In this document: positions 16,894-43,183 of the stretch, piece by piece
Numbering within the stretch: position 1 is the stretch's first letter
Layout: every line of letters starts with the position of its first letter
Assembly (NCBI GenBank): GCA_001714685.2
Contig: MDTP02000057.1
Span: 1 to 48,578 of the forward strand
Direction: 5' to 3'
Length of the DNA: 48,578 bases
Origin: Methanosarcina sp. Ant1
GTDB lineage: Archaea; Halobacteriota; Methanosarcinia; Methanosarcinales; Methanosarcinaceae
The notes under the pieces: generated by a model
Seen by the model: only the letters and a program-made list of their open reading frames with translations
What the model was told of the DNA's origin: nothing
Database searches by the model: none
Position numbers and translations under genes: made by a program

Positions 16894-17058
16894 TTTACTT
16901 CCCCCGAAATAGTATTCACGGAATATTATTCACTCCGTATTTTGCTTTTTGAGAATAAATACTTTCTATTACCTAGTATCGTGAAAATTTAATTGTGAAT
17001 CGTTAGAATGATATGAATCACCAAAACAACTACGAATCCATTTATTTTGATAGAAATT

Positions 17059-17136
17059 ATCCAAATTATGTTCCATAATTAATTTTTCGAGCCACTAGTG
17101 TCAAGAAAATTTAGTTATGGAACATAATATTCGGAT
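17059..17136. repeat. Inverted repeat with ~20-bp arms
   Basis: The left arm 17059-17079 (ATCCAAATTATGTTCCATAA...) and right arm 17115-17136 (TTATGGAACATAATATTCGG...) are reverse complements apart from small indels. The loop is about 35 bases. It lies between the end of the giant kinase and the promoter region of the DUF2769 gene, and could act as a long hairpin or be a small element. Confidence 0.6.
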
Positions 17137-17175
17137 AGTTCCTCGTATGTAGGGGATTCGGTAGCTCTCATAGCA

Positions 17176-17214
17176 TTATTCAATCAATTGCTGTGAGGTT
17201 GATGCTGATGTCTA
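17176..17214 (-). other. Amber codon and conserved 11-codon extension of the giant kinase
   Basis: After EKNN the TAG is followed by TSASTSQQLIE and TAA. The paralogue at 39962 ends EKNKQASAPSPQQLFE. The two align without gaps, TAG facing Gln (CAA), with S, A, Q, Q, L and E identical at matching positions. Readthrough as pyrrolysine would restore the ancestral C-terminus. Confidence 0.6.
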
Positions 17215-20200
17215 ATTATTTTTTTCTGTTACATTGAACCTTATAGTGAACTCTGTTCCCTTGTTTCTTTTCAGTTCAAGTTCACCATCTAACTGGTCTA
17301 CAAGGGAAGTTACCAGTTGAAGCCCCAGGCTATCAAGATCTTTAATGTCAACGTTTTCAGGAATGCCTATGCCGTTATCTGAAACGGTTAGGGTAAAACT
17401 CGTACTATCATAGCCTTCGTTTTTGCTTTCTTCTATGCTGTTTATACATTCTCCATTTTCTTCTCTACGGAGTTTGATTCGGATTTCTCCTTTACCCTTC
17501 CCTATAAATGCATGTTTAAAGGAATTAGAAATAAGTTCATTAACGATTATCCCTAACGGGACAGAAGTATCCATGTCAAAGAATATATTTTTTTTCAGGT
17601 CCATTCTTAGGCTGACATCTGTGTTTCCAAGCCTGTATGTAAAGAAAAGATTCTTAGCGAGTTCCTCGATGTAAGACGAAAAGTCAAGTGTATCGATCCC
17701 TCCACCTTTATAAAGTTCCTCATGGATCAGGGCCATGGATCTCACTCTGTCCTGGCTTTCCCTGAAGGCTTTCAGAACTTCTGAGTCTTTAATATCCTCT
17801 CTGTTATTGAACTTTTCAGCCTGAAGGTCAAGAAGGGACGAGATTACTTGCAAGTTGTTCTTGATTCGATGATGAATTTCCTTTTTACGGGCATTCTCAA
17901 TGTTTACTAGAGCTTCTTCTGCTTTTTTACGTTCAGTGATATCCTGAACTGTTCCTCTCATTCGAGTAGGATTATTTTTCTCATCAAAAATAACTTCTCT
18001 TTCTGATTGTACTATGCGCTCTTCTCCGTCAGGTCGAACTATTTTATAATTAGTTGCATAGATCTTTCCTTTAAAAGCTTTCTTAGTGGAGTTATACACA
18101 TAGTCTCTGTCTTCTGGACGTACGTAACTTAAAAATTTATCGTAAGTTATGCTTTCTCGAGGGTTACGTCCAAAAATACGATACATTTCATCAGACCAGT
18201 ATAATTCACCAATTACAAGATCATTATCCCAGTTTCCAATATGAGCTATTCGTTGAGCTTCAGAAAGACGTTTTTCACTTTCTTTCAATGATTTATAGGC
18301 TTCTTCAAGTTCAGATGTACGTTCTTTAACCTTTGCTTCTAAACTGTCATGTGCTTTTTTAAGGGCTTTTTCAGCTTTTTTGCTCTTTTCTATCTCGGCT
18401 TTCAGCTCATAATTGGATCGCTGAAGCTCTGCTGTTCGTTCGATGACTCGGATCTCAAGTTCGTCCCGCGCATGGCGTAACTCTTCCTCTGCATGCTTGC
18501 GTTCATTGATGTCAGTGAGCATGCTAAGAGAGCCCATGAACTTGCCATCTTTATCAAAAAGGGATTTAGCATTTATAAGTACCCATAGGGATGAGCCATC
18601 CTTGCGTATTAATTCCAATTCATAGCTCTCATTGATACCCTGCAGCCTCTTTTTCAGATTCAGTTTGAGGATAGCCTTACCTTCTTCACTGATAAAGTCC
18701 CATATCGGTCTGCCTATAATTTTTCTATGACTGTATCCGAACATCTCAACAATTTTCTTATTAATGTAAGTAATTCTGGCTTCAGCGTCCATTACGCATA
18801 TACCTTCATTTGCTGTCTCTACGATATTGCGGTACTTTTCTTCACTTTCTCGAATTTTTTCTTCTGCTCTTTTTCTTTCGGTTATATCTCTGGAAATGAA
18901 CGAGATAGCAGTCAGCTTTCCATGTATATCAAAAACCGGAGAAAGAGTTATCGAAACATCTATTATCTTCCCGTCCTTTCTTAACCGTAAAGTCTCATAA
19001 TTGTGGATCCTTTCTCCCTTTTTAATAAGTTCACTTAATTTTTTTGATTCTTTATCTAAGTGGGGCGGAGCTAGGATGGATATAGACTTACTCAAAATTT
19101 TTTTAGCTGAATGACCATAAATCCGCTCTGCCCCTTTATTCCAGCTTGTAATAATACCGTCAAGGGACATAGTTCCAATAGCATCATTTGATGATTCCAC
19201 AATATTGGCTAAGATCTGAATTTTCTCTCTCACTCTTTTACGTTCAGTAATATCCTGAACTATTCCTTTTATTCGAAAAGGGATGTTTTCCTCATCAAAG
19301 ATAACTTCGGATTGCATATGGACTGTGCGTTCTTCCCCATTAGCCAAGACAATCCTATAATCAATTGAATGGGGCTCCCTTTTTACCCCTTTCTTAAGGG
19401 CATTATTGACATAGTCTCGATAGTCGGGGTGTATATAATTTAAAAATTCATTATAAAGTGGTCCTAATTCTTGAGGATTACGTCCGAAAATACGATACAT
19501 TTCATCAGACCAGTATGTTTTCCCGCTTACAAGATCCAAATCCCAATTTCCAATATTAGCCATTTTTTGGGCTTCAGCGAGACGTCCTTCGCTTTCTTCC
19601 AGCGACTTATATGCATTCTCGAGTTTTCTTGTTCTTTCTTCAACTATGTCTTCTAAATTGTTAAGTAGTTCTTTCAACTTAGCTTCTGCTTCTTTCAGAT
19701 CTGTAATATTGCGGGAAATAGCAAGAACAGATGTCACTTTGCCATCAATGAACTCCGGTACTAGTTGTGTATTAAAATAGTATTCTTTTCCTTGAGGCGA
19801 TTTATAAAGGAATTCCATCGTTTCGGGTTTTCCTGTGGCAAAAACATTTTCATGATGTTTTTCCCAAAATTTCACCTTTTCGGGATCCATTCCCAATTCA
19901 CTATGAGTTCTACCACTGATTTCTTCTGGAGACCGACCATAAGGTTCCGCAGCGGCAGGATTAGCATATATGTGGCGATTTTGTTTATCAAAGCGGGCAA
20001 TCACGTCAGGAGAATTTTCAGCTAATGTACGAAAACGCTCTTCACTTATAATCATTTTTTCTTCAGCTTTTTTGCGTTCATTGATATCACGAGCGACATG
20101 AATACTCCCAGTGAGTTTTCCTTCCGAATCATGTAGTGGCGAAACGCTCACTATAAAATAACCACCAAGACAATCCTCGCAAACCTCCGCTGTGTGCTCA

Positions 20201-21033
20201 AACCCGTCTTTAAGCAACTGCCTATGCGGACAAAAAGAGGGAGGCTCGCTCGTCCCATGGACAACATGATAGCACGTCAACCCAACGCACTCTTCTGGTG
20301 TCAAGCTCAATCTTGCCGCCATGGCTCTGTTTGCACGAACAATCCGATAGTTAGTGTCGATTATGGCTATCAGGTCTGGCACAGCATCAAAAGTATGTTC
20401 CCAATCCTTTGTGGCTTGAAAAGCTGCTTCTTCAGCTTTCTTGCGTTTGGAGCTTTCTACGAGCTTCCATTTGCCTCCTCTTTTGATCAAAGCGAATTGA
20501 TGGTTTACGACCAGATCGATTATCTCAGCTGCGTTGTGCCTATCGAGAGAATAGGTGCACAGAGCTATCATCCGGTAGTTACCGATGACGTTGTCTGTCC
20601 GTTCCTTATATTCGATGAAACTATTCCAGTCTTCTTTTTCCAACCAGAAAGTATTCCCACTAAGCCTCACACCATCGTACCCACTTTCCGAAGCATGAAT
20701 GAGTTTTTCAATCCAGGCATTTAAGATCTTCTCCGAATCGAAAACGCCTTCCGTGATAAACCAGTCAATGTAAGAGATAATTTCGATTTGTCCTTTCTCC
20801 AGATAAAAGTCAATGTCAGAAACAGCATTTCTCAAGGCTTCTTTTACACCTTCCACTTCCAGAGGTTGTGATGTGATCCAGAGGCAAAATTCATTGTTTT
20901 CCAACCCTGCTTTGAAGTAGGGAACCAGAATGTCCGTCAAATCTTCTTTTGTTTGATAGAATTGACAGATGTGCGTACCCCATGACACATCTCCAACAAT
21001 ATCAATTCCAGAATTTCTCAGATTTTCTTTCAT
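17212..21033 (-). CDS. Giant MEDS/multi-PAS HisKA_2 sensor kinase; stop is TAG with a conserved extension
   Basis: The 1273-residue soluble kinase starts with a MEDS domain (SWGTHICQFYQTKEDLTDIL, residues ~18-190), found in methanogen/methylotroph sensors. About six PAS domains follow (roughly 205-320, 325-450, 490-600, 605-725, 730-850, 915-1040), with coiled coils between some of them. The HisKA_2 box KKEIHHRIKNNLQVISSLLD has His at 1054-1055, and the C-terminal ATPase has NELISNSFKHAF and DNGIGIP. There are no membrane helices. The first PAS has a Cys cluster (CEDC plus nearby Cys) that might hold a cofactor; this is speculative. The gene ends at TAG (17212-17214). Eleven further codons (TSASTSQQLIE) and TAA at 17176-17178 match the tail of the 1073-residue paralogue. 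No response regulator is adjacent. Confidence 0.93.
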   Translation of the reverse strand: MKENLRNSGIDIVGDVSWGTHICQFYQTKEDLTDILVPYFKAGLENNEFCLWITSQPLEVEGVKEALRNAVSDIDFYLEKGQIEIISYIDWFITEGVFDSEKILNAWIEKLIHASESGYDGVRLSGNTFWLEKEDWNSFIEYKERTDNVIGNYRMIALCTYSLDRHNAAEIIDLVVNHQFALIKRGGKWKLVESSKRKKAEEAAFQATKDWEHTFDAVPDLIAIIDTNYRIVRANRAMAARLSLTPEECVGLTCYHVVHGTSEPPSFCPHRQLLKDGFEHTAEVCEDCLGGYFIVSVSPLHDSEGKLTGSIHVARDINERKKAEEKMIISEERFRTLAENSPDVIARFDKQNRHIYANPAAAEPYGRSPEEISGRTHSELGMDPEKVKFWEKHHENVFATGKPETMEFLYKSPQGKEYYFNTQLVPEFIDGKVTSVLAISRNITDLKEAEAKLKELLNNLEDIVEERTRKLENAYKSLEESEGRLAEAQKMANIGNWDLDLVSGKTYWSDEMYRIFGRNPQELGPLYNEFLNYIHPDYRDYVNNALKKGVKREPHSIDYRIVLANGEERTVHMQSEVIFDEENIPFRIKGIVQDITERKRVREKIQILANIVESSNDAIGTMSLDGIITSWNKGAERIYGHSAKKILSKSISILAPPHLDKESKKLSELIKKGERIHNYETLRLRKDGKIIDVSITLSPVFDIHGKLTAISFISRDITERKRAEEKIRESEEKYRNIVETANEGICVMDAEARITYINKKIVEMFGYSHRKIIGRPIWDFISEEGKAILKLNLKKRLQGINESYELELIRKDGSSLWVLINAKSLFDKDGKFMGSLSMLTDINERKHAEEELRHARDELEIRVIERTAELQRSNYELKAEIEKSKKAEKALKKAHDSLEAKVKERTSELEEAYKSLKESEKRLSEAQRIAHIGNWDNDLVIGELYWSDEMYRIFGRNPRESITYDKFLSYVRPEDRDYVYNSTKKAFKGKIYATNYKIVRPDGEERIVQSEREVIFDEKNNPTRMRGTVQDITERKKAEEALVNIENARKKEIHHRIKNNLQVISSLLDLQAEKFNNREDIKDSEVLKAFRESQDRVRSMALIHEELYKGGGIDTLDFSSYIEELAKNLFFTYRLGNTDVSLRMDLKKNIFFDMDTSVPLGIIVNELISNSFKHAFIGKGKGEIRIKLRREENGECINSIEESKNEGYDSTSFTLTVSDNGIGIPENVDIKDLDSLGLQLVTSLVDQLDGELELKRNKGTEFTIRFNVTEKNN

Positions 21034-22330: not shown

Positions 22331-24889
22331 TCATTTCATTCGGGTTTTGTACGTGTGATACACGGTATATATCAGGTATATAAGGAAGGCCAGGACAAGG
22401 ATGTATTTTGCATACGCGACTTTTGTCATAGCTTTCTTTTCTGTACTGGTTAAGGAGTCTGTTGTTATTCGTGAATAAATATCGCCCGGTGTGTAGATCT
22501 TTCCGCCGTTTTCGAGTAGGGCTGTCCTGAAAAGTGGGTTTTCGCCGATATAGGTGTACTCGTCAGGACAGTTTGCCGATGCAGGTCTCCAGGATACGTT
22601 ATCAACGCCGAATGTTTCAGGTTTATTTTTTCCCTGGTTTACGCTAACAGGTTTTTCTGATATTTTATGGAGGCCGAAGGCTTCTGGGGTCACATATGAT
22701 TCATACATACTATTCCCTATAGGCGTGATTTCCATACGTTTTTTGTCAAAATAGAGTTCAGGAGCTCCTCCTTTTTTCGTAGTGATAAGGATCCTTCCTG
22801 GCTGGTTTACTTTAAGGTCAGGGACTTTTAGCTGAATATTCTCTGATGTTTCAGTATCTGCAACTGCCCAGTTTAGAGTTCTTGTAACTATCAGGCTGTC
22901 GTTTCCTGAATACAGAGAGGATGCCCATGGAATACCGTGACTGTAGCCATTATCAGTTGTAATTGCAGCAACGCGGCCAAGGCCCAGCCTCCAGACTGTG
23001 ATTACGGGTTTACCGAGTCTCGTGATTACAAGGCGGTTTGCCTCAGGCTTAGGGGTTACTTCATTATAGCCTAGAAGGTCATGATTTATTTCAGAAATAT
23101 CTCTGGTGATAAAATGCTTAGGATCATAGATTGTCAGTGAACCGCTTGAATAGTTTTCTTCCTTATTCTTGGACTCTTCCTGTTTTTCGGAAAAGCTGAC
23201 ATTTACTCGCTGCCCCGGTTCTATCCTGTTGTAGTTTTTGGGCAAGTTTATGTTTTCCATCAGGATCTCGGTGTAGTATTTCCCGTTGGGAGTGACCTCC
23301 CGGCTATCTGTTTTGGGGGCGTGTATATGGACAAAATGAATGCCTATCCCGCTTTCGTGGAGAGAAGCTGCACAATTAACTGCTCGCTCGAATCTGTTAT
23401 CTCCTCCACCTATATTGCCGATTCCGCCATCGGAAACGATCACAACTTCAGCTTCTGCACTCCTGTTCTGCGTTTCAAGAAGCCTGCGAGCAGTTAATAA
23501 TCCCTGTTCAAGAGACGTTGAGTCTCCAGAGGGATTGATTTTGCTAATCTCACTACCAAGCCACAATCTGTTTGATTCTTTGGACATATCCACAAAACCG
23601 TTTGTAATATCCTGTCCTTTGCTCCCGAATGTGATTACATCCACTCTTGCATCTTTTAAGAGGCTGCTTTCAAGAAGGACAATTGCATTGGACAGTATAT
23701 CGTCTAAAACGCGCCCTCCGATATTATTGCTCTGCAGGGTGCTGGGCGAAACATCAAGCATAAGAACTATGTTCCTGCCGCCCCTCCAGCTGGAAGGTTT
23801 GGATATGACAGGGAGGACCTCTTCAAATTTTGTGTTTTGATACGTATTCTGCGCCGGATAATCAAAAGAGGCGTCTCCGCCAACAACTATCAAGCCTCCC
23901 CCATTAATGATATATTTTCTCAGGGCTTCTACTTCCGAATTTGAAATTGTCGAAGCAGCCTGGTTGTCGATTATGACTGCATCGATACCTTCGAGGGAAT
24001 CATATGACCTGGCAGAGTGTACATCATAAACTTTATTCAATATATTTGCTAAAGGCGAATCCGGTTCATTCGTAACAAAAAGTACCTTGGGTTTTGGGGT
24101 TACGTATACGCATTTCATATACTGGTTGTTGTTCTCAAAATAATCCAGACTTTTTACACTTATGCTTGCAGGATGCAGGGTTGCTTTAACTGTATGAGGC
24201 CCCAGTGTTTTGAACGTATAGTTAAGGTTAATACTTTCTAATCTTCCGGTCTGAGTAATTTCCTTTTCCATTACCTGCTGGTTGTCTACTGTGACTCTAA
24301 CCTGATAACTCATTTTGTTTTCAGTTGATTTTCGGATATTAAGATTGAAAAAAGCTTCATTATCGATTACAAGCTCATTTTCACCTTCAATTTCTAAGCT
24401 GAGGTCTTCCTTGAGCGTAGGCGGGATAAGTCCTGCTACCGGAAAATTGTTCTTGTAACAGTAGGAGAGTGCATCTTCAATTGAAGTCCCGGAGTTGCTT
24501 TGACCATCTGATACTGCAAGCACATAATTGTCAGGTGAAGCCTGCTGAATAATAGTATCTCCCAGAGATGTATGCGATCCGGAGATAGTGGTAACCGTAA
24601 TAGGGACTTTACTATTGAGTTTCTCTGATATATTTTCCGGAATCCCTTTCTGAAGCAGTTCCATACTTGTGCTTTCGTCGGAAATTATAGTTATCCTGGA
24701 CTGATTGGTTTTCGGGGAAGTTATCTCTGCAGAATAAGGAGCTGCAAGCGCTAAAATCAGGAGGAATGCAACAAGCGCATGGAAAAACAGATGTTTTTTA
24801 CTGGCTTTTTTTCTCAACCCCATAAGTACGAAAATTGCCAGAGGAATCAGGAGCATTAACTCGGTTTTATATAGAAAATCAAAGCTCAT
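22331..24889 (-). CDS. Membrane-anchored VWA-domain protein (BatA/B-like, with glutamine-amidotransferase-like fold)
   Basis: This 852-residue protein has two N-terminal helices (LMLLIPLAIFVLMGL, HALVAFLLILALAAPYS), a large extracytoplasmic region and a C-terminal helix (YILVLAFLIYLIYTVYH). The middle contains a von Willebrand A domain with MIDAS motif DVSPS near residue 375 and a later VSDGG loop. Residues around 270-350 (PKVLFVTNEPDSPLANIL, ALRKYIINGGGLIVVGGD) resemble the amidotransferase-like fold often found in such proteins. It is the last gene of the moxR cluster; its ATG overlaps the previous stop (ATGA). It probably assembles or modifies envelope proteins together with MoxR. Confidence 0.88.
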   Translation of the reverse strand: MSFDFLYKTELMLLIPLAIFVLMGLRKKASKKHLFFHALVAFLLILALAAPYSAEITSPKTNQSRITIISDESTSMELLQKGIPENISEKLNSKVPITVTTISGSHTSLGDTIIQQASPDNYVLAVSDGQSNSGTSIEDALSYCYKNNFPVAGLIPPTLKEDLSLEIEGENELVIDNEAFFNLNIRKSTENKMSYQVRVTVDNQQVMEKEITQTGRLESINLNYTFKTLGPHTVKATLHPASISVKSLDYFENNNQYMKCVYVTPKPKVLFVTNEPDSPLANILNKVYDVHSARSYDSLEGIDAVIIDNQAASTISNSEVEALRKYIINGGGLIVVGGDASFDYPAQNTYQNTKFEEVLPVISKPSSWRGGRNIVLMLDVSPSTLQSNNIGGRVLDDILSNAIVLLESSLLKDARVDVITFGSKGQDITNGFVDMSKESNRLWLGSEISKINPSGDSTSLEQGLLTARRLLETQNRSAEAEVVIVSDGGIGNIGGGDNRFERAVNCAASLHESGIGIHFVHIHAPKTDSREVTPNGKYYTEILMENINLPKNYNRIEPGQRVNVSFSEKQEESKNKEENYSSGSLTIYDPKHFITRDISEINHDLLGYNEVTPKPEANRLVITRLGKPVITVWRLGLGRVAAITTDNGYSHGIPWASSLYSGNDSLIVTRTLNWAVADTETSENIQLKVPDLKVNQPGRILITTKKGGAPELYFDKKRMEITPIGNSMYESYVTPEAFGLHKISEKPVSVNQGKNKPETFGVDNVSWRPASANCPDEYTYIGENPLFRTALLENGGKIYTPGDIYSRITTDSLTSTEKKAMTKVAYAKYILVLAFLIYLIYTVYHTYKTRMK

Positions 24890-26772
24890 ATGATTTTCCT
24901 CCTGAACATGATTATGTTTTCAATAAAAAGCAGAAGCAGGAGGGCGTAAATAAGGTATTTCCGGACTTTATCCGGAGATCTGGTATGCAGATTTCCGCTC
25001 TGGATTTCTGCGTTCTCACCTTCCAGATTTAATCTTTTTTCCGTAAATGTGTTTGATTCAGCTGAATCATAGAGATTAGCAGCGACAGTTTTCTGGTTCA
25101 GGTTGTATAGTCCGCATTCGTCATAATAAACGAATTTACTACTGATTGTTTCCGCAGGGGTCTTGATTCTGGTATCCTGGTCAAATGCCTGGTATCTGCC
25201 TGTGTTTACATTTGTCTCACTGATATCATCAATTCCCCACATATACTTGAGAAGCTTTGCCCAGAATACTGGGTATGTGGGAACAGTAGGGAAATTGTTC
25301 CAGGCTTCGTTTTCAACATTATCACTTAGCCCAACGTAAGTCGTTGTCCCATTGTTAATATTCCATGTACAGACAACAGGTCCAACTCCATCGATTTCGG
25401 CAAGTACCGATGTGTTTTCACGCGGGACAGCAACAAGGTACCTGTGCAAATATACCTCATTAAACGAAATATCCTTAAAAATATGCTTCCCGCTTCCTGC
25501 TGTCTCAATTGAATGGCTGTTGTCTTCTTTGATTGAGACTATGTTTACAGGAAGGACAGGATAAAGTCCATGCATTTCCGAAGAATTATACAGGCATCCG
25601 TTTCCTATGACTATCAGGTCTTTCCCGTTTTTCGCATTAGCAACGACTTTTCTGACAGTAGAAGTTGACAGCGGTTTATGCTCACAATCTATAACAAAAG
25701 TATCGTATTTTGCAAAATCGTCCGGAAGGTCATACCGTACATCGACGAGAGTGTCAGGCATCAAAGATAATGCTGTTATAACCGGGGATTTGCTGACAGC
25801 CGGGTCAAGGTCTGTTAATATGAGGATTTTTTTTGGCGTAACTTCAGGAATGGAAATGTGGGCGAGATTATCACAGGGCACTGCATCCTTATTGAGAATT
25901 TCCACCGTCGATGTACCCTGAGGAATACTGGAAAATTTAATTTGCTGAGTCCCGAACCCATCAAGAGATATCGAATTGCTTACTTTTTGAGTTGAAAACA
26001 TGCCTGACCTACTTTCCATTTGAACATCGAGCTTTGCACTCTTATTGTTGAAATTTTTGACAGTACATGTATATTCATATGTCCCATCGTTTCTGTCTTT
26101 CAAATACCCGTTTACGATTGCATAGTTTGGAGTCGGCCTGCCTACCTGCAAGAATTCAAGCTGCATATTTTGAGCGTTAGCGATTTTAATGTATGTTTCA
26201 GGTGTCCTTCCTACCCAGTTTTCAAAATCAGATATGACTACAATTCTTGAGTCCTTGTTTTCTTTATCGTTTACAACTGTCAGAATAGATTTTGGCACAT
26301 CGGAGGGGGTATTTTTGGCTTTCATGCTGCTGATAAGTTCTTTTGCATTTGCTGCATCGACCGCCTTTGCAAGTACCACAGGAATGCTTTCTGCAGCAAT
26401 GATTGTGTTTTCTTCTCCCAGGCTCTCTATTGCTGCGGATCTGGCATTGTTGATCCGATCGGGCACGGTCATGCTGGAGGACGAGTCTATTATAATTACA
26501 ACTTTTTTTGAATTCTCAGAAATATCATCAAGCACAGGGCCTGCAATGGCAATGGATACAAGGATCAAGGCGAGTAGCTGTAAGAAGAAAAGCGGATCTG
26601 TTATTTTTTTTGTGATTTTGCGCCTGGAATCGAGTACATTCTGACCTATTTTTTGGATGAACATTAAAGAAGGTAAGATTACCTGTTTTGGCCGGGGTTT
26701 AAGTAAATATACTATTATAAGGGGAATTATGCCTGCAAGTGCGGCCAAACCCAGGGGAAATTCATAGTCCAT
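24886..26772 (-). CDS. BatA-type membrane protein with VWA domain
   Basis: The N-terminus (MDYEFPLGLAALAGIIPLII, then VYLLKPRPKQVILPSLMFI) is the standard BatA/aerotolerance-regulator start. A second helix (FFLQLLALILVSIAIAG) and a VWA domain (VVIIIDSSSSM, MIDAS near residue 96) follow. Then come beta-rich extracytoplasmic regions and a C-terminal helix (YLIYALLLLLFIENIIMF). Length is 628 residues from the ATG at 26772. I choose this over the GTG at 26784 because GGTGATC lies six bases before the ATG. Order and near-overlap with DUF58 and the large VWA gene indicate one operon. Confidence 0.9.
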   Translation of the reverse strand: MDYEFPLGLAALAGIIPLIIVYLLKPRPKQVILPSLMFIQKIGQNVLDSRRKITKKITDPLFFLQLLALILVSIAIAGPVLDDISENSKKVVIIIDSSSSMTVPDRINNARSAAIESLGEENTIIAAESIPVVLAKAVDAANAKELISSMKAKNTPSDVPKSILTVVNDKENKDSRIVVISDFENWVGRTPETYIKIANAQNMQLEFLQVGRPTPNYAIVNGYLKDRNDGTYEYTCTVKNFNNKSAKLDVQMESRSGMFSTQKVSNSISLDGFGTQQIKFSSIPQGTSTVEILNKDAVPCDNLAHISIPEVTPKKILILTDLDPAVSKSPVITALSLMPDTLVDVRYDLPDDFAKYDTFVIDCEHKPLSTSTVRKVVANAKNGKDLIVIGNGCLYNSSEMHGLYPVLPVNIVSIKEDNSHSIETAGSGKHIFKDISFNEVYLHRYLVAVPRENTSVLAEIDGVGPVVCTWNINNGTTTYVGLSDNVENEAWNNFPTVPTYPVFWAKLLKYMWGIDDISETNVNTGRYQAFDQDTRIKTPAETISSKFVYYDECGLYNLNQKTVAANLYDSAESNTFTEKRLNLEGENAEIQSGNLHTRSPDKVRKYLIYALLLLLFIENIIMFRRKII

Positions 26773-26780
26773 AGGCAGGA

Positions 26781-27662
26781 TCACCTTTCACCTATGATTG
26801 TAAGAACAGCATCCATGGGCTGGTTCTGGATGCTAATATTGAAAAATGGAATTTTGAAGTCGTATGCGATTTTATCCAGTTCAGCCATATGTCTCCCGTA
26901 TTCTTCGACATATTCTTTTTTGAACTGAGGGCCTACTGAGATGCTGACTTCTTCGTTTGTTTCACTGTCAATGAATTTGACTATGCCGTCCACGGTTTCA
27001 GGCAGGTTAATTTCGTTTTCGTCATAGAGATGCACAAGGATAAGTTCATGTCTGGACAGCCTGTGGACAGCATGTCGAATGGAATCAAGGTTATCCAGAA
27101 AATCTGAAATTATTAAGACCATCGATTTTGATTTTATTCTGGAATATAGAACGTCTGCACAGTCGGCAAGTTTCGTCTTTCCGTTAACGGAAATTGTGGA
27201 CAAGTTGTCGATAGTCCGGAGGAATTCATCTCTTCCTTTGTGGGCTTTAGTATAGTCAACATTATCCGCAAATGTTGCAATCATATACTGGTCGTTGTAT
27301 CTCATTACGATATAAGAGACTCCAATGGCTATCGTCGATGCGTATTCGAATTTATTCGGGTTACTCTCCGGAAAGAGCATGCTGCTGCTGGCGTCTAGTA
27401 GTATGACCATATTCAGGTTTTTGTCTTCTTCGAATCTGCGTATATACAGTTTTTCAGTACGCGCATAGAGATTCCAGTCAATTTTTTTCAATGGATCTCC
27501 AGGATTGTATTTTCTGTGGTCTACAAGGTCAAGCCCAGACCCCTTCTTTGTGGAGGTATGATTGCCTGCGTGCACTGCTGTTACTCTATTCTTGAGGGGG
27601 AGTGTGTATTTATCGAGCTGAGTCAGGAACGATGTATCTATCTTATTTTTTGCGCCAGCCAT
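26781..27662 (-). CDS. DUF58 protein (VWA-like, MoxR partner)
   Basis: The 293-residue protein carries the DUF58 signature DHRKYNPGDPLKKIDWNLYA (about 48-67) followed by a VWA-like domain with VILLDASSSM (about 87-95) and VLIISDFLDN. DUF58 proteins accompany MoxR ATPases and are thought to link the ATPase to membrane VWA substrates. No signal peptide or membrane helix is present, so it should be cytoplasmic. It starts 29 bases after moxR and its stop abuts the BatA-like gene. Confidence 0.93.
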   Translation of the reverse strand: MAGAKNKIDTSFLTQLDKYTLPLKNRVTAVHAGNHTSTKKGSGLDLVDHRKYNPGDPLKKIDWNLYARTEKLYIRRFEEDKNLNMVILLDASSSMLFPESNPNKFEYASTIAIGVSYIVMRYNDQYMIATFADNVDYTKAHKGRDEFLRTIDNLSTISVNGKTKLADCADVLYSRIKSKSMVLIISDFLDNLDSIRHAVHRLSRHELILVHLYDENEINLPETVDGIVKFIDSETNEEVSISVGPQFKKEYVEEYGRHMAELDKIAYDFKIPFFNISIQNQPMDAVLTIIGER

Positions 27663-27691
27663 GTTTTATCACTGCCTCCAACCATGTTTTA

Positions 27692-28717
27692 TCACTGGCT
27701 GAGGTCATGTAGTTGTTTTTTATCTTCCAGGATTTTTTGTATAATTTTATCGCTGGTAACATTGTTCCGTGCAGCGTCAAACGATAGAATGATTCTATGA
27801 CGAAGGACAGGAAGAACCATAGAGTCGATATCCTCTTTGTCGACATACCCTCTGTTGTCAAGAAATGCATTTGCCTTTGCACAGAGGATCAGGGCTATTG
27901 AGGCACGTGGGGATGCACCTGACTCGATCATTTCCGGCATATTCCGGGTCTGGTTCACGATATCGATTGCATACCTCTTGAGTTTGTTGGAAATCGGAAT
28001 CCTTCGAGTGACCTGCTGCAATTCGAGGAAAGTCTGTTTTTCTATGCATCTCTGAACAGTTGGCCTGAAAGCTTCCGCATATCTATTTACAATCTCAAAC
28101 TCTTCTTCTTTGTCTGGATATCTCAGATTGATTTTCATTAAAAACCTGTCAAGCTGGGCTTCGGGCAAAGTGAAGGTCCCTTCCATCTCAATCGGGTTTT
28201 GGGTTGCCAGGATAAAAAAGGGTTTGTCCAGTAAGTATGTCGTATTCGCCACAGTTACCTGCTTTTCCTGCATCGCCTCAAGCATTGCAGACTGGGTTTT
28301 CGGTGACGCACGGTTGATCTCATCCGCCAGGACAATATTTGCAAAGACGGGACCTTGCTTAAACTTGAAGTGTTTGGAGCCTCTCTCGTCATCTTCAATT
28401 ATGTCAGTTCCCGTGATATCCGTAGGCATCAGGTCGGGTGTACACTGTATCCTGCTAAACTTCATGTTCATTATCTGAGAAATGGTAGATATGGTCAGTG
28501 TTTTACCCAGTCCGGGATTGCTTTCGACCAGAACATGCCCCTCACACAGCATGGCTATTAGGATCTGCCTGATCATTTCCTTCTGGCCGACGATAGAGTT
28601 GCCGATTTCTTTAAAGATAAGTTCAAAAATCGTAGGGGCTTTTTCATAGGTAGGTTTTAGATTAAGTTCCGAGTCTTCAAGCTGAATTTCCTGTACTTCT
28701 TTCATATTAAGCTCCAT
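27692..28717 (-). CDS. MoxR-family AAA+ ATPase
   Basis: A 341-residue AAA+ protein of the MoxR group. Walker A is SNPGLGKT (66-73) and Walker B is IVLADEIN (128-135), followed by RASPKTQSAMLEAMQEKQVT, the sensor ATQNPIEMEGTFTLPEAQLD and a C-terminal lid (SGASPRASIALILCAKA). MoxR ATPases act as chaperones that mature protein complexes, with DUF58 and VWA partners. The ATG at 28717 follows an AATTCG-rich leader; M5 is a possible alternative. It heads the four-gene operon. Confidence 0.96.
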   Translation of the reverse strand: MELNMKEVQEIQLEDSELNLKPTYEKAPTIFELIFKEIGNSIVGQKEMIRQILIAMLCEGHVLVESNPGLGKTLTISTISQIMNMKFSRIQCTPDLMPTDITGTDIIEDDERGSKHFKFKQGPVFANIVLADEINRASPKTQSAMLEAMQEKQVTVANTTYLLDKPFFILATQNPIEMEGTFTLPEAQLDRFLMKINLRYPDKEEEFEIVNRYAEAFRPTVQRCIEKQTFLELQQVTRRIPISNKLKRYAIDIVNQTRNMPEMIESGASPRASIALILCAKANAFLDNRGYVDKEDIDSMVLPVLRHRIILSFDAARNNVTSDKIIQKILEDKKQLHDLSQ

Positions 28718-37047: not shown

Positions 37048-38769
37048 TTACCCTAAAATTGAATTGTCGGACAGCCTGTTTAGGGCGGGGTGACAGCACG
37101 CAATTTGATCCATTTCTGTTACTGTGAACCTTATAGTGAATTCTGCCCCATTGTTCCTTTTCAGTTTAAGTTCCCCATCTAACTGGTCTACAAGGGAAGC
37201 TATCAGCTGAAACCCAAGAGTCTCAAGATTTTCCAAATCAAGACTTTCAGGTATACCTATCCCATCATCTGAAACTGTGAGAATGAAACTGATACTCTTA
37301 CAGCATTCGCCTTTGCCGTCTTCTATGCTGTTTATACATTCTCCGTTTTCTTCTCTACGGAGTTTGATTCTGATTTCTCCTCCGTCCCTCCCCTGAAATG
37401 CATGTTTGAGGGAGTTGGAAACGAGTTCGTTAATAATTATCCCCAACGGGACTACAGTATCCATATTAAAGGATGCATTTTCTTCCAGATCCACGTACAG
37501 ACGGATATTTTGACTACTAAGACTGTAAGTCTGGAAAAGGTTTTCAGCTAATTTTTGAAGGTATGCCGAAAAGTCCAATGTATCGGTTTCTTCCCCTTTA
37601 TAGAGTTCTTCATGGATAAGAGACATCGAGAGTACCCGGCTTTGACTTTCCCTGAAAGCCTCTCTAACATTTTCATCCTCGAACTTATCAGCCTGTAGGT
37701 CCAGAAGGGAAGAGATTACTTGCAAGTTGTTCTTGATTCTATGATGGATTTCTTTTTTTCTGGCATCTTCAGCTTTTGCCAGGGATTTTTCCGCATTGAT
37801 TCGCTCAGTAATATCTCTAGCAATAGCTGAGATAGCCACAAGCTCTCCAGATGCGTCAAAAACTGGAGAAAGAGTTACTGAAACATTTATTATTGTACCA
37901 TCCTTTTTTAACCGTGACGTTTCGTAGTGCTGGATCTTTTTTCCCTGTTTAATCTTTTCAGAAAACTGTTTCATTTCCCCTTTAAGATTATCCGGTTCAA
38001 GTATTGATATGTGTTTTCCCAGAATTTCTTCAGCTGAATAACCATGAATCTGCTCTGCTCCCTTATTCCAGCTGATAATAATATCCTCAAGAGACCTAGT
38101 TACAATAGCGTCGTCTGATGATTCCACAGCATTCAACAGTATCTGAATTTTCTCTTCTGTTTTTTTCCTCTTGGAACTTTCTATATTTTCCCATTTCCCT
38201 TTCCTTTTGATCAAAGCAAAATGGTGGTTGATAATCACGTCGATAATTTTGTTTGCGCCGCACTTGCTGAGAGGGTATGTGCACAGAGCTATCATTCGGT
38301 ATTTATCGATACTAGAATCTATTTTTTTCTCAGAATCAACAAAATCATCCCACTCCTCTGTTTTCAACCAGGAAGTATTCCCTGACAGCCTCAGCCCTTC
38401 ATAGCCACTTTCCAGGGCATGATTGAGTTTTTCAAACCAGCCATTCATGACCCTTTCAGGATTGTAAATGCCTCCATTTACACACCAGAAAATGTAGGAA
38501 ATAATTTCAATTTGCCCTTTCTCCAGGTAAAAGTCAATGTCAGAAACAGCACTTCTCAAGGCTTCTTTTGCCTCTTCTACTTCTAGGGGTTGTGACGTGA
38601 TCCAGAGACAATACTCGTTATTCTCCAACCCTGCTTTAAAGTAAGGAACCAGTATGTCTGCTAAATCCTCTTTTGTCTGGTAGAATTGGCAGAAGTGCGT
38701 TCCCCACGGCACGTCTCCGATAATATCAATACCTGAATTTCTAACGTTTTTCCTCATATGCATCTTCAC
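37048..38769 (-). CDS. MEDS/PAS HisKA_2 sensor kinase with an element-derived C-terminal tail
   Basis: The 573-residue kinase has a MEDS domain (PWGTHFCQFYQTKEDLADIL, residues ~20-195), one PAS domain (~210-325), a HisKA_2 box (KKEIHHRIKNNLQVISSLLD, His 342-343) and an ATPase domain (NELVSNSLKHAFQG, DDGIGIP). It looks like a shortened version of the giant kinase and shares long DNA identity with it in the MEDS and catalytic domains. The C-terminus differs from its paralogues: after FTIRFTVTE it reads MDQIACCHPALNRLSDNSIL-G. The same sequence, as DNA and in the same frame, occurs beside the inverted-repeat element at 48021-48075 (NQIACGHPTLNRLSDNYCQ). No response regulator is adjacent. Confidence 0.93.
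   Translation of the reverse strand: MKMHMRKNVRNSGIDIIGDVPWGTHFCQFYQTKEDLADILVPYFKAGLENNEYCLWITSQPLEVEEAKEALRSAVSDIDFYLEKGQIEIISYIFWCVNGGIYNPERVMNGWFEKLNHALESGYEGLRLSGNTSWLKTEEWDDFVDSEKKIDSSIDKYRMIALCTYPLSKCGANKIIDVIINHHFALIKRKGKWENIESSKRKKTEEKIQILLNAVESSDDAIVTRSLEDIIISWNKGAEQIHGYSAEEILGKHISILEPDNLKGEMKQFSEKIKQGKKIQHYETSRLKKDGTIINVSVTLSPVFDASGELVAISAIARDITERINAEKSLAKAEDARKKEIHHRIKNNLQVISSLLDLQADKFEDENVREAFRESQSRVLSMSLIHEELYKGEETDTLDFSAYLQKLAENLFQTYSLSSQNIRLYVDLEENASFNMDTVVPLGIIINELVSNSLKHAFQGRDGGEIRIKLRREENGECINSIEDGKGECCKSISFILTVSDDGIGIPESLDLENLETLGFQLIASLVDQLDGELKLKRNNGAEFTIRFTVTEMDQIACCHPALNRLSDNSILG
37054..37112 (-). mobile_element. Mobile-element end used as the last codons of the kinase gene
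   Basis: ACAGGCTGTCCGACAATT and the adjoining GCACGCAATTTGA-type flank match 48021-48075 at roughly nine in ten positions. Here the sequence is coding and provides the stop context of the 573-residue kinase. Confidence 0.6.
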
Positions 38770-39961: not shown

Positions 39962-42900
39962 TTACTCAAATAATTGTTGCGGGGACGGCGCTGATGCTTG
40001 TTTATTTTTTTCAGTTAAAATGAATCTCATAGTGAACTCTGTCCCATTATTCCTTTTCAGTTCAAGTTCTCCTTCTAACTGATCTACAAGGGTTATTACC
40101 AGCTGAAGCCCAAGGCTATCAAGATCTTCAATATCAAGGTTTTCAGGAATGCCTACGCCGTTATCTGATACGGTCAGGGTAAAACTGGTATTCTTACAGC
40201 CTTCCTTTTTGTATTCTCCGTTTTCTTCTCTACGGAGTTCGATTCGGATTTCTCCCTTATCTCTGCCGGGAAATGCATGTTTGAGGGAATTGGAAACGAG
40301 TTCATTGACAATTATTCCTAAAGGAACGGCATTATCCATATCAAATAATGTATTTTCTTCCAGATCCATGTTCAGGTGGATATTTTTGCTACTAAGTCTG
40401 TAAGTCTGGAAAAGGCTTTCAGCCAACTTTTTAAGGTATTCAGAGAAGTTTAGTGTATCAGTCCCTTCCTCTTCATAGAGTTCTTCGTGGATGAGAGCCA
40501 TAGATACAACCCTACTCTGACTCTCCCTGAAAGCCTCTCTAACATTTTCATCCTCAAACTTATCAGCCTGTAGATCCAGCAGGGAAGAAATTACCTGCAA
40601 ATTGTTCTTGATTCTATGATGGATTTCTTTTTTTCTGGCGGCTTCAGCTTTCGCCAGTGATTTTTCCGCCTTAATTCGCTCAGTGATATCCCTGCCAATG
40701 ATCGAGACAGCAGTTAATTTTCCAGATATGTCAAAAACCGGAGAAAAAGTTAATGAAACATTTATTGACGTACCATCCTTTTTTAACCGCGTAGTTTCGT
40801 AGTTATTAATCTTTATTCCCTGTTTAATCCTGTCAATTAACTTTTTTATTTCACCTTTAAGATTATCCGATTCGAGTATTGATGAATCTTTTCCTATAAT
40901 TTCTTCAGCTGAATAACCATAAATACTCTCTGTCTCTTTATTCCAGCTCGTAACAGTACCGTCAAGAGATGCAGTCACAATAGAATCATGTGATGATTCC
41001 ACAATATTTGCCAGCGTCTGAATATTCTCTTCAGCTCTTTTACGCTCAGTAATGTCCTGAACTATTCCTTTCACTCGAATAGGGATATTTTTCTTATCAA
41101 AAACAACTTCAGCTTGTATATGGACTGTGCGTTCTTCTCCATTAGCCAAGATAATCCTCTGATCAATGCTGTAAGGTTTTCCATTTATAGCTTTCTTAAG
41201 GGCACTATCCACATAGTCTCGATCATCATGATGCACATAACTTAAATATTCTTTGAAAGTTGGCGCTAATTCTTGCGGGTTACGTTTAAAAATACGATAT
41301 AGTTCTTCAGACCAGTATGCTTTATCAGTTGCAATATCACATTCCCAATTTCCAATATGAGCCATTTTTTGAGCTTCAGCAAGACCGCCCTCACTTTCTT
41401 TCAATGAGTTATATGCCTTCTCAAGCTGGGTTGTTCGCTCTTCAACTAGTTTTTCTAAATTTTCATGTGCTTTTTTTAGAGCTTCTTCTGCTTTCTTACG
41501 CTCAGTAATATCACGTGCAGCTGCAAAGATACCAATAACCCTACCATTCTCGTCTCTATAAACTGAAGCATTGTACAAAACAGGAATTATATGTCCTTCC
41601 TTATGCTGAATCTCTAGAGGATAATCCCGAACTTCGCCACTTGTGAATACCTGCTGATAGCCTGTACGGGCTTTCTCAGGCTCAGTGAAGTAATCTGAAA
41701 AATCAGTCCCGATCAAATCATTTCTGGAATATCCAGTAACCTGTTCTGTAGCGCCATTTACATCCGTAATTTTGCCGTCAGGCCCGATGGTTACTAGAGG
41801 ATCCAGACTAGCTTCAATAAGGCTACGATTATAAATATTTGACAACCTAATAGCTTCTTCTACTTTTTTGCGCTTAGTGATATCTATGAATGCAGAAACA
41901 GCCCCGCGTGGATTGCCCTGCTCGTCACGCAGGGGTCTGGCGTTACCCAATACGTGTCGTATATTGCCGTCAGCAGATATGATGTCTAGCTCGCAGTTGT
42001 TTACCTCTATGCCTGCAACCGACATCTGCGACGGCATATCGGTAGCGGGCATCTCCACTCCGTCCTTGAATAACCTGAACATCTCGGGTCTCTCTCCTTC
42101 GGGAGCGGACTTGGAAAAGTTTGTACCCACAGGAATCCGTTGCCATTCGTAGGAGAGACGGTTACCAGTTATTTGAAGCGCTTGGGGATCGTGCGCTATA
42201 TACACGGCGACAGGCACGGCATCCAATACTGCTGCCAGTTCTTCCGAGCGAGCTCTCTCACGTTTCTCGCTCTCCCGCAGCGCGTTAACCAGGGTATCGC
42301 GTTCCGCCAGCGACTGGGCCAGCTTGATATTACTATAGCTTAGCTGCGAGGTCATGTTGGCAAACGTCATAAAGAAAGACATGCCTGTGTCAACAGCTTC
42401 CTTGCTCAACCGTGGAACTTTTTCAAGCGCTGCTATGTATTCCTCCTCATTGAAACCGTATTTTCTAGCCTGGGATCGGAAAAGCTCACAGTCCAGAGGC
42501 TCGTCTTCAAAAAAGAACTGCCCTGCGAAGATATCGCCGACATGCTGGTCACCCACAATTATGGGAGTCACTATGTCCCACATGTTGTTCTTACACTTGT
42601 ATAGCTTAAACTCTCCAGGGGAAACGCCTGCAGATAGCTTTATGTTGCTTTCTACGCAGTGCTTGCAGGTTTCGGGATGAACCCTATGGAATTTGGTACA
42701 GATATCCTGCCATCCAACGCCTACCAGAACATTGCCTTTGAGATCGTTTAGGCCAATGGGAATGTGAACAAGCTTATAAAAATCATCCATGAGGGACTGG
42801 ATCGCCTGGGTATCAATGATGTCGGCAAGCTCCAGGTTAGCCATTTCCCGAACTTCACTTTCCTGAAGGTTAGCCTCAAACTCTTTCTGGTAGCTTAAGT

Positions 42901-43183
42901 CGAATCCAGAAATACACACACATTTTTCTTCGGTTAAGGGGTGAAACACAATTAAGTATACTCTTTTTCCCGCTTTAACTTCCATTTTTTCCGGACTATT
43001 CCGGGAAAGTACTCTTTGCACAAAATCTCCGATACTCGAAGGCAGTTTTTCTCCGACTCCCACACCCCACTCATGCAGTAAGGGCTCACCCGCTTTATTT
43101 GAGTAAAGAACCGTCCCATCCTTTTCCACACGGAGTACAGGATTAGGGTTTGTTGCCGGAAATTGCTCCATCTTTGTTTTCAT
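39962..43183 (-). CDS. PocR/multi-PAS HisKA_2 sensor kinase
   Basis: The 1073-residue soluble kinase starts with a PAS-like region (1-120), then a PocR domain (~128-300) containing FHRVHPETCKHCVESN, VTPIIVGDQHVGDIFAGQFF and the typical C-terminal helix. PocR domains bind small hydrocarbon-type ligands and are coupled to kinases in methanogens. About four PAS domains follow (~325-445, 450-565, 610-725, 730-845), one preceded by a coiled coil. The HisKA_2 box has His 855-856 and the ATPase domain has NELVSNSLKHAFPG and DNGVGIP. The tail EKNKQASAPSPQQLFE is the intact version of the sequence beyond TAG in the giant kinase. It is orphan, with no adjacent regulator. TTATCCTC-rich sequence precedes the ATG. 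Confidence 0.93.
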   Translation of the reverse strand: MKTKMEQFPATNPNPVLRVEKDGTVLYSNKAGEPLLHEWGVGVGEKLPSSIGDFVQRVLSRNSPEKMEVKAGKRVYLIVFHPLTEEKCVCISGFDLSYQKEFEANLQESEVREMANLELADIIDTQAIQSLMDDFYKLVHIPIGLNDLKGNVLVGVGWQDICTKFHRVHPETCKHCVESNIKLSAGVSPGEFKLYKCKNNMWDIVTPIIVGDQHVGDIFAGQFFFEDEPLDCELFRSQARKYGFNEEEYIAALEKVPRLSKEAVDTGMSFFMTFANMTSQLSYSNIKLAQSLAERDTLVNALRESEKRERARSEELAAVLDAVPVAVYIAHDPQALQITGNRLSYEWQRIPVGTNFSKSAPEGERPEMFRLFKDGVEMPATDMPSQMSVAGIEVNNCELDIISADGNIRHVLGNARPLRDEQGNPRGAVSAFIDITKRKKVEEAIRLSNIYNRSLIEASLDPLVTIGPDGKITDVNGATEQVTGYSRNDLIGTDFSDYFTEPEKARTGYQQVFTSGEVRDYPLEIQHKEGHIIPVLYNASVYRDENGRVIGIFAAARDITERKKAEEALKKAHENLEKLVEERTTQLEKAYNSLKESEGGLAEAQKMAHIGNWECDIATDKAYWSEELYRIFKRNPQELAPTFKEYLSYVHHDDRDYVDSALKKAINGKPYSIDQRIILANGEERTVHIQAEVVFDKKNIPIRVKGIVQDITERKRAEENIQTLANIVESSHDSIVTASLDGTVTSWNKETESIYGYSAEEIIGKDSSILESDNLKGEIKKLIDRIKQGIKINNYETTRLKKDGTSINVSLTFSPVFDISGKLTAVSIIGRDITERIKAEKSLAKAEAARKKEIHHRIKNNLQVISSLLDLQADKFEDENVREAFRESQSRVVSMALIHEELYEEEGTDTLNFSEYLKKLAESLFQTYRLSSKNIHLNMDLEENTLFDMDNAVPLGIIVNELVSNSLKHAFPGRDKGEIRIELRREENGEYKKEGCKNTSFTLTVSDNGVGIPENLDIEDLDSLGLQLVITLVDQLEGELELKRNNGTEFTMRFILTEKNKQASAPSPQQLFE

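Follow-up and report, generated by a model that had tools for sequence, protein, structure and literature searches.

A lone amber codon before the homologous tail of a Methanosarcina sensor histidine kinase, probably a product of neutral decay

In archaea that decode pyrrolysine (Pyl), UAG is both a sense codon and a stop codon (PMC2933860). An amber introduced into a reporter gene of Methanosarcina acetivorans is read through with Pyl at 20–30%, and Thg1, the tRNA-His guanylyltransferase, carries a non-essential Pyl (PMC2933860); its amber was acquired by neutral evolution in M. acetivorans (Heinemann et al. 2009, as cited in PMC2933860). A 2013 screen that kept only UAG codons followed by 100 bases or more, with similarly interrupted matching frames in further genomes, named an amber-interrupted sensory transduction histidine kinase cluster, cluster 16, as a Pyl candidate (PMC3639795). 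Here we compare with these systems a sensor kinase of Methanosarcina sp. Ant1 that ends at TAG, encoded on a stretch of 48,578 nucleotides (hereafter, the window) that is contig 57 of a 4.29 Mb genome assembled in 342 contigs.

The kinase lies on the minus strand (17212–21033 including the TAG), with 1273 codons ahead of the stop (17215–21033). A domain search places MEDS and several PAS sensor domains N-terminal to HisKA_2 and HATPase_c, which identifies the protein as a HisKA_2 sensor histidine kinase. It ends ...FNVTEKNN at the TAG (17212–17214), where the family usually has CAG and in some copies CAA. The codons that follow (17179–17211), ACA TCA GCA TCA ACC TCA CAG CAA TTG ATT GAA, would encode the 11-residue remnant tail TSASTSQQLIE and run into a TAA (17176–17178), where the intact tail ended ancestrally. 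Reading the minus strand confirmed exactly the coordinates given for the kinase end and tail by an earlier sequence-only reading, which had proposed that the tail persists either because UAG is read as pyrrolysine or because the amber is very recent. The TAG residue falls outside any domain, and the tail lies beyond the ATPase domain.

Two other family members are encoded on the minus strand of the window. The tail of a paralogous PocR/PAS/HisKA_2 kinase (39962–43183) is intact (QASAPSPQQLFE TAA), its C-terminus reading ...EKNKQASAPSPQQLFE TAA (also written TEKNKQASAPSPQQLFE TAA). It aligns to the window kinase tail without gaps and with TAG facing CAA, as had been claimed. The family-wide view differs from this pair, for the usual codon at the site is CAG, not CAA. 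The third member, a MEDS/PAS/HisKA_2 kinase (37048–38769), has a different C-terminal end (TEMDQIACCHPALNRLSDNSILG TAA).

The DNA flanking the kinase end has features of its own. A repeat element starts at the kinase TAA and runs downstream (17065–17176); part of it (17092–17176) matches elsewhere in the genome, for example at C125:166-254 (93%), C174, C187, and C77, and a palindrome with two 32-nt arms that are 84% complementary spans 17065–17128. The 130 bp at 16969–17098 are 100% identical to G000:C68:9882-10011, which suggests that the copy is very recent or that the repeat arose in assembly. On the other side of the kinase, the minus strand carries a cluster of MoxR-type AAA ATPase, DUF58/VWA, BatA-like, and VWA/glutamine-amidotransferase-like genes (22331–28717).

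The window kinase belongs to a large family. A protein search with its C-terminal part returned 19 to 47 matches per genome in six genomes, or roughly 20–50 copies per Methanosarcina genome, and DNA around the kinase end was matched in 30 of the 31 genomes of the genus. HisKA_2 sensor kinases are strikingly expanded across these 31 genomes, with varied sensor domains and tails. In the named collection, every archaeal relative of the kinase is from Methanosarcina, and six loci there share 49–71% protein identity with it. We surveyed 146 distinct family C-termini, in which the first stop is TAA in 116, TGA in 20, and TAG in 10. Recognizable tail DNA, scored against the consensus tail EKNNQASAPALQQLIE-TAA with the 99th percentile of shuffled tails as threshold, is kept in 52. 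The window tail scores 52.5 against the family consensus (shuffled-tail maximum, 31); because its DNA matches many family members and its score lies far above the shuffled maximum, the similarity reflects homology and not chance.

The genome carries pyrrolysine machinery. We found a tRNA-Pyl with anticodon CUA (cta), the PylS N-terminal domain, PylB, and three mtmB loci that each contain a single internal TAG, so the absence of pylT and pylS, which would have told against read-through, does not apply. In principle, UAG can therefore be read as pyrrolysine in Methanosarcina sp. Ant1. Given that UAG is decodable and leaky in Methanosarcina, any gene that ends at TAG may plausibly be read through to some degree, and this is not specific to the window kinase. 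The proposal of pyrrolysine read-through thus stands as to its precondition. Its other support, the retained tail, does not hold up, since tails are also retained behind TAA and are frequently frameshifted.

At least eight lineages among the 52 tail-bearing copies have a TAA within the tail and keep homologous in-frame codons behind it. In four of these the old terminal TAA is also kept: QASTPAQ-TAA-QLIE-TAA (L125), QASVSEV-TAA-QSIE-TAA (L126), QVSVPAQQ-TAA-LIE-TAA (L133), and QASAP-TAA-LIE-TAA (L124). L046, L073, and L129 likewise carry homologous in-frame codons after an internal TAA, and in the pair L158/L171 the TAA sits opposite the window TAG in the alignment. UAA is not decoded by tRNA-Pyl, so read-through is not needed for a tail to persist behind a stop. 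Frameshifts have broken the tail in at least ten copies (L042, L045, L075, L076, L128/L130, L134, L005, L165, L097, L110, and others), in some cases between close relatives. L042, from the window's own genome, is frameshifted by one extra A in an A-tract and is 98.6% identical over the 420 nt upstream to L012, whose tail is intact; L126, with its TAA, and the frameshifted L075 are 96.9% identical, and the intact L127 stands at about 93%. Frameshifts or random change in orthologues had been named as evidence that would count against read-through, and such changes do occur, in paralogues. Searching the 31 genomes of the genus for the same gene brought up nothing close, with DNA from other species reaching 77–83% identity at best. 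A different tail type offers a separate case, in which L156 (G021:C165:3659-4365) has TAG where its relative L186 has CAG (KS-TAG-ENR-TAA vs KSQENE-TAA); in L101 a TAA interrupts that type of tail.

The codons of the tail tell a similar story. Among the ten copies with gap-free tails, third positions account for 35% of the differences within the tail and for 55% within the kinase body next to it; the pairs are not independent, and selecting gap-free tails should, if anything, tilt the result towards constraint. For pairs that include the window copy the shares are 39% and 55%. One third is expected where coding constraint is absent. The tail has no excess of third-position changes and does not bear the mark of purifying selection, although 11 codons are too few to speak strongly against weak constraint and give low power for the window copy taken singly. 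The window copy itself points the other way, as its final five codons (QQLIE) depart from the consensus of the family solely at silent positions and its old TAA is intact. An open tail is unremarkable, as the probability that eight random changes create no new stop in 11 codons (33 nt) is 0.65.

Most readable tails have CAG at the TAG site, a few have CAA, and CAT is also seen; with CAG the usual codon, a single C-to-T transition suffices to account for the amber. TAG ends 9 of 197 ORFs of at least 200 codons in a 421 kb sample of the genome, where the median distance to the next in-frame stop is similar for the three stops, at 12 codons after TAG, 13 after TAA, and 12.5 after TGA. A tree places the window copy on its own branch within a poorly resolved group. 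The suggestion that the amber is very recent fares better than that of read-through, in that the TAA-broken and frameshifted tails favour a recent or unconstrained amber.

The reading that we favour, and consider very probable from these sequence comparisons, is that the amber arose by chance during neutral decay of a short dispensable tail, and that the tail is residual homology rather than a selected extension. The C-terminal tail of a duplicated ancestor would have been dispensable and would have decayed freely across the copies, the window copy happening to lose it to an amber where others lost it to an ochre or a frameshift. A single transition from CAG to TAG, presumably in that direction, would be the simplest origin. 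UAG would then act mainly as the stop of the gene, while some ribosomes may insert Pyl and continue for 11 residues to the TAA as incidental leakage. That such leakage is appreciable, with a sizeable fraction of the kinase bearing Pyl and a functionless extension, is compatible with a chance amber and has, we judge, a slightly better than even chance, by analogy with the leaky reporter and the non-essential Pyl of Thg1 in M. acetivorans (PMC2933860).

A functional pyrrolysine in the window kinase appears unlikely on the same comparisons. Selected read-through, in which UAG as pyrrolysine would yield a functional 1285-residue kinase, possibly tuned by growth on methylamines, draws on the Pyl machinery and internal-TAG mtmB loci of the genome and on a tail that stays in frame to the ancestral TAA. 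We regard it as very improbable, since tails are retained equally behind TAA and are often frameshifted or lost, the copies show no codon constraint, and TAG occurs at this site in none of the other aligned-tail copies (which have CAG, CAA, CAT, or, in L158/L171, TAA). Nor does anything near the TAG resemble a recoding signal. The residue lies outside the domains, the RNA 3' of the TAG is no more structured than expected by chance (fold z −0.8) and shows no PYLIS-like element, a feature that not all pyrrolysine genes have, and Rfam gave no relevant match, only miRNA-like matches below curated cut-offs on the downstream palindrome. Still harder to credit is a kinase made in two forms, with and without the Pyl-containing extension, whose ratio would report pyrrolysine status, although, if true, it would link methylamine metabolism to signalling. 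An assembly or base-calling error, the codon really being CAG, would be easiest to imagine in a draft of 342 contigs with a repetitive kinase family; it too seems very unlikely, and mixing of copies is improbable because the kinase part is at most 79% identical in DNA to its paralogues within the genome.

The interest of the family lies in its use as a clean natural control for pyrrolysine prediction, because in-frame tails survive behind TAA as they do behind TAG. Taken alone, an open homologous extension behind a UAG is hence no sign that Methanosarcina reads through it. These copies would also let leaky UAG decoding be measured against matched UAA-ended paralogues.

Among described systems, the methylamine methyltransferases MtmB, MtbB, and MttB resemble the window kinase in having an in-frame TAG in a genome with pyl genes, but theirs is conserved and efficiently translated, whereas the kinase TAG is a singleton outside any domain. 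Thg1 of M. acetivorans also has an in-frame amber that is specific to its lineage, sits at a site that is not essential and belongs to a Methanosarcina able to decode Pyl; there Pyl was physically observed, whereas the window kinase is known from sequence and has an expendable 11-codon tail beyond its amber. Compared by description, cluster 16 (PMC3639795) is likewise a sensor kinase of methanogens in which open sequence follows an in-frame UAG. The window kinase differs from it in having 33 bases after UAG and a TAG that is not conserved, and Pyl candidates such as that kinase cluster need the control that TAA-ended tails provide.
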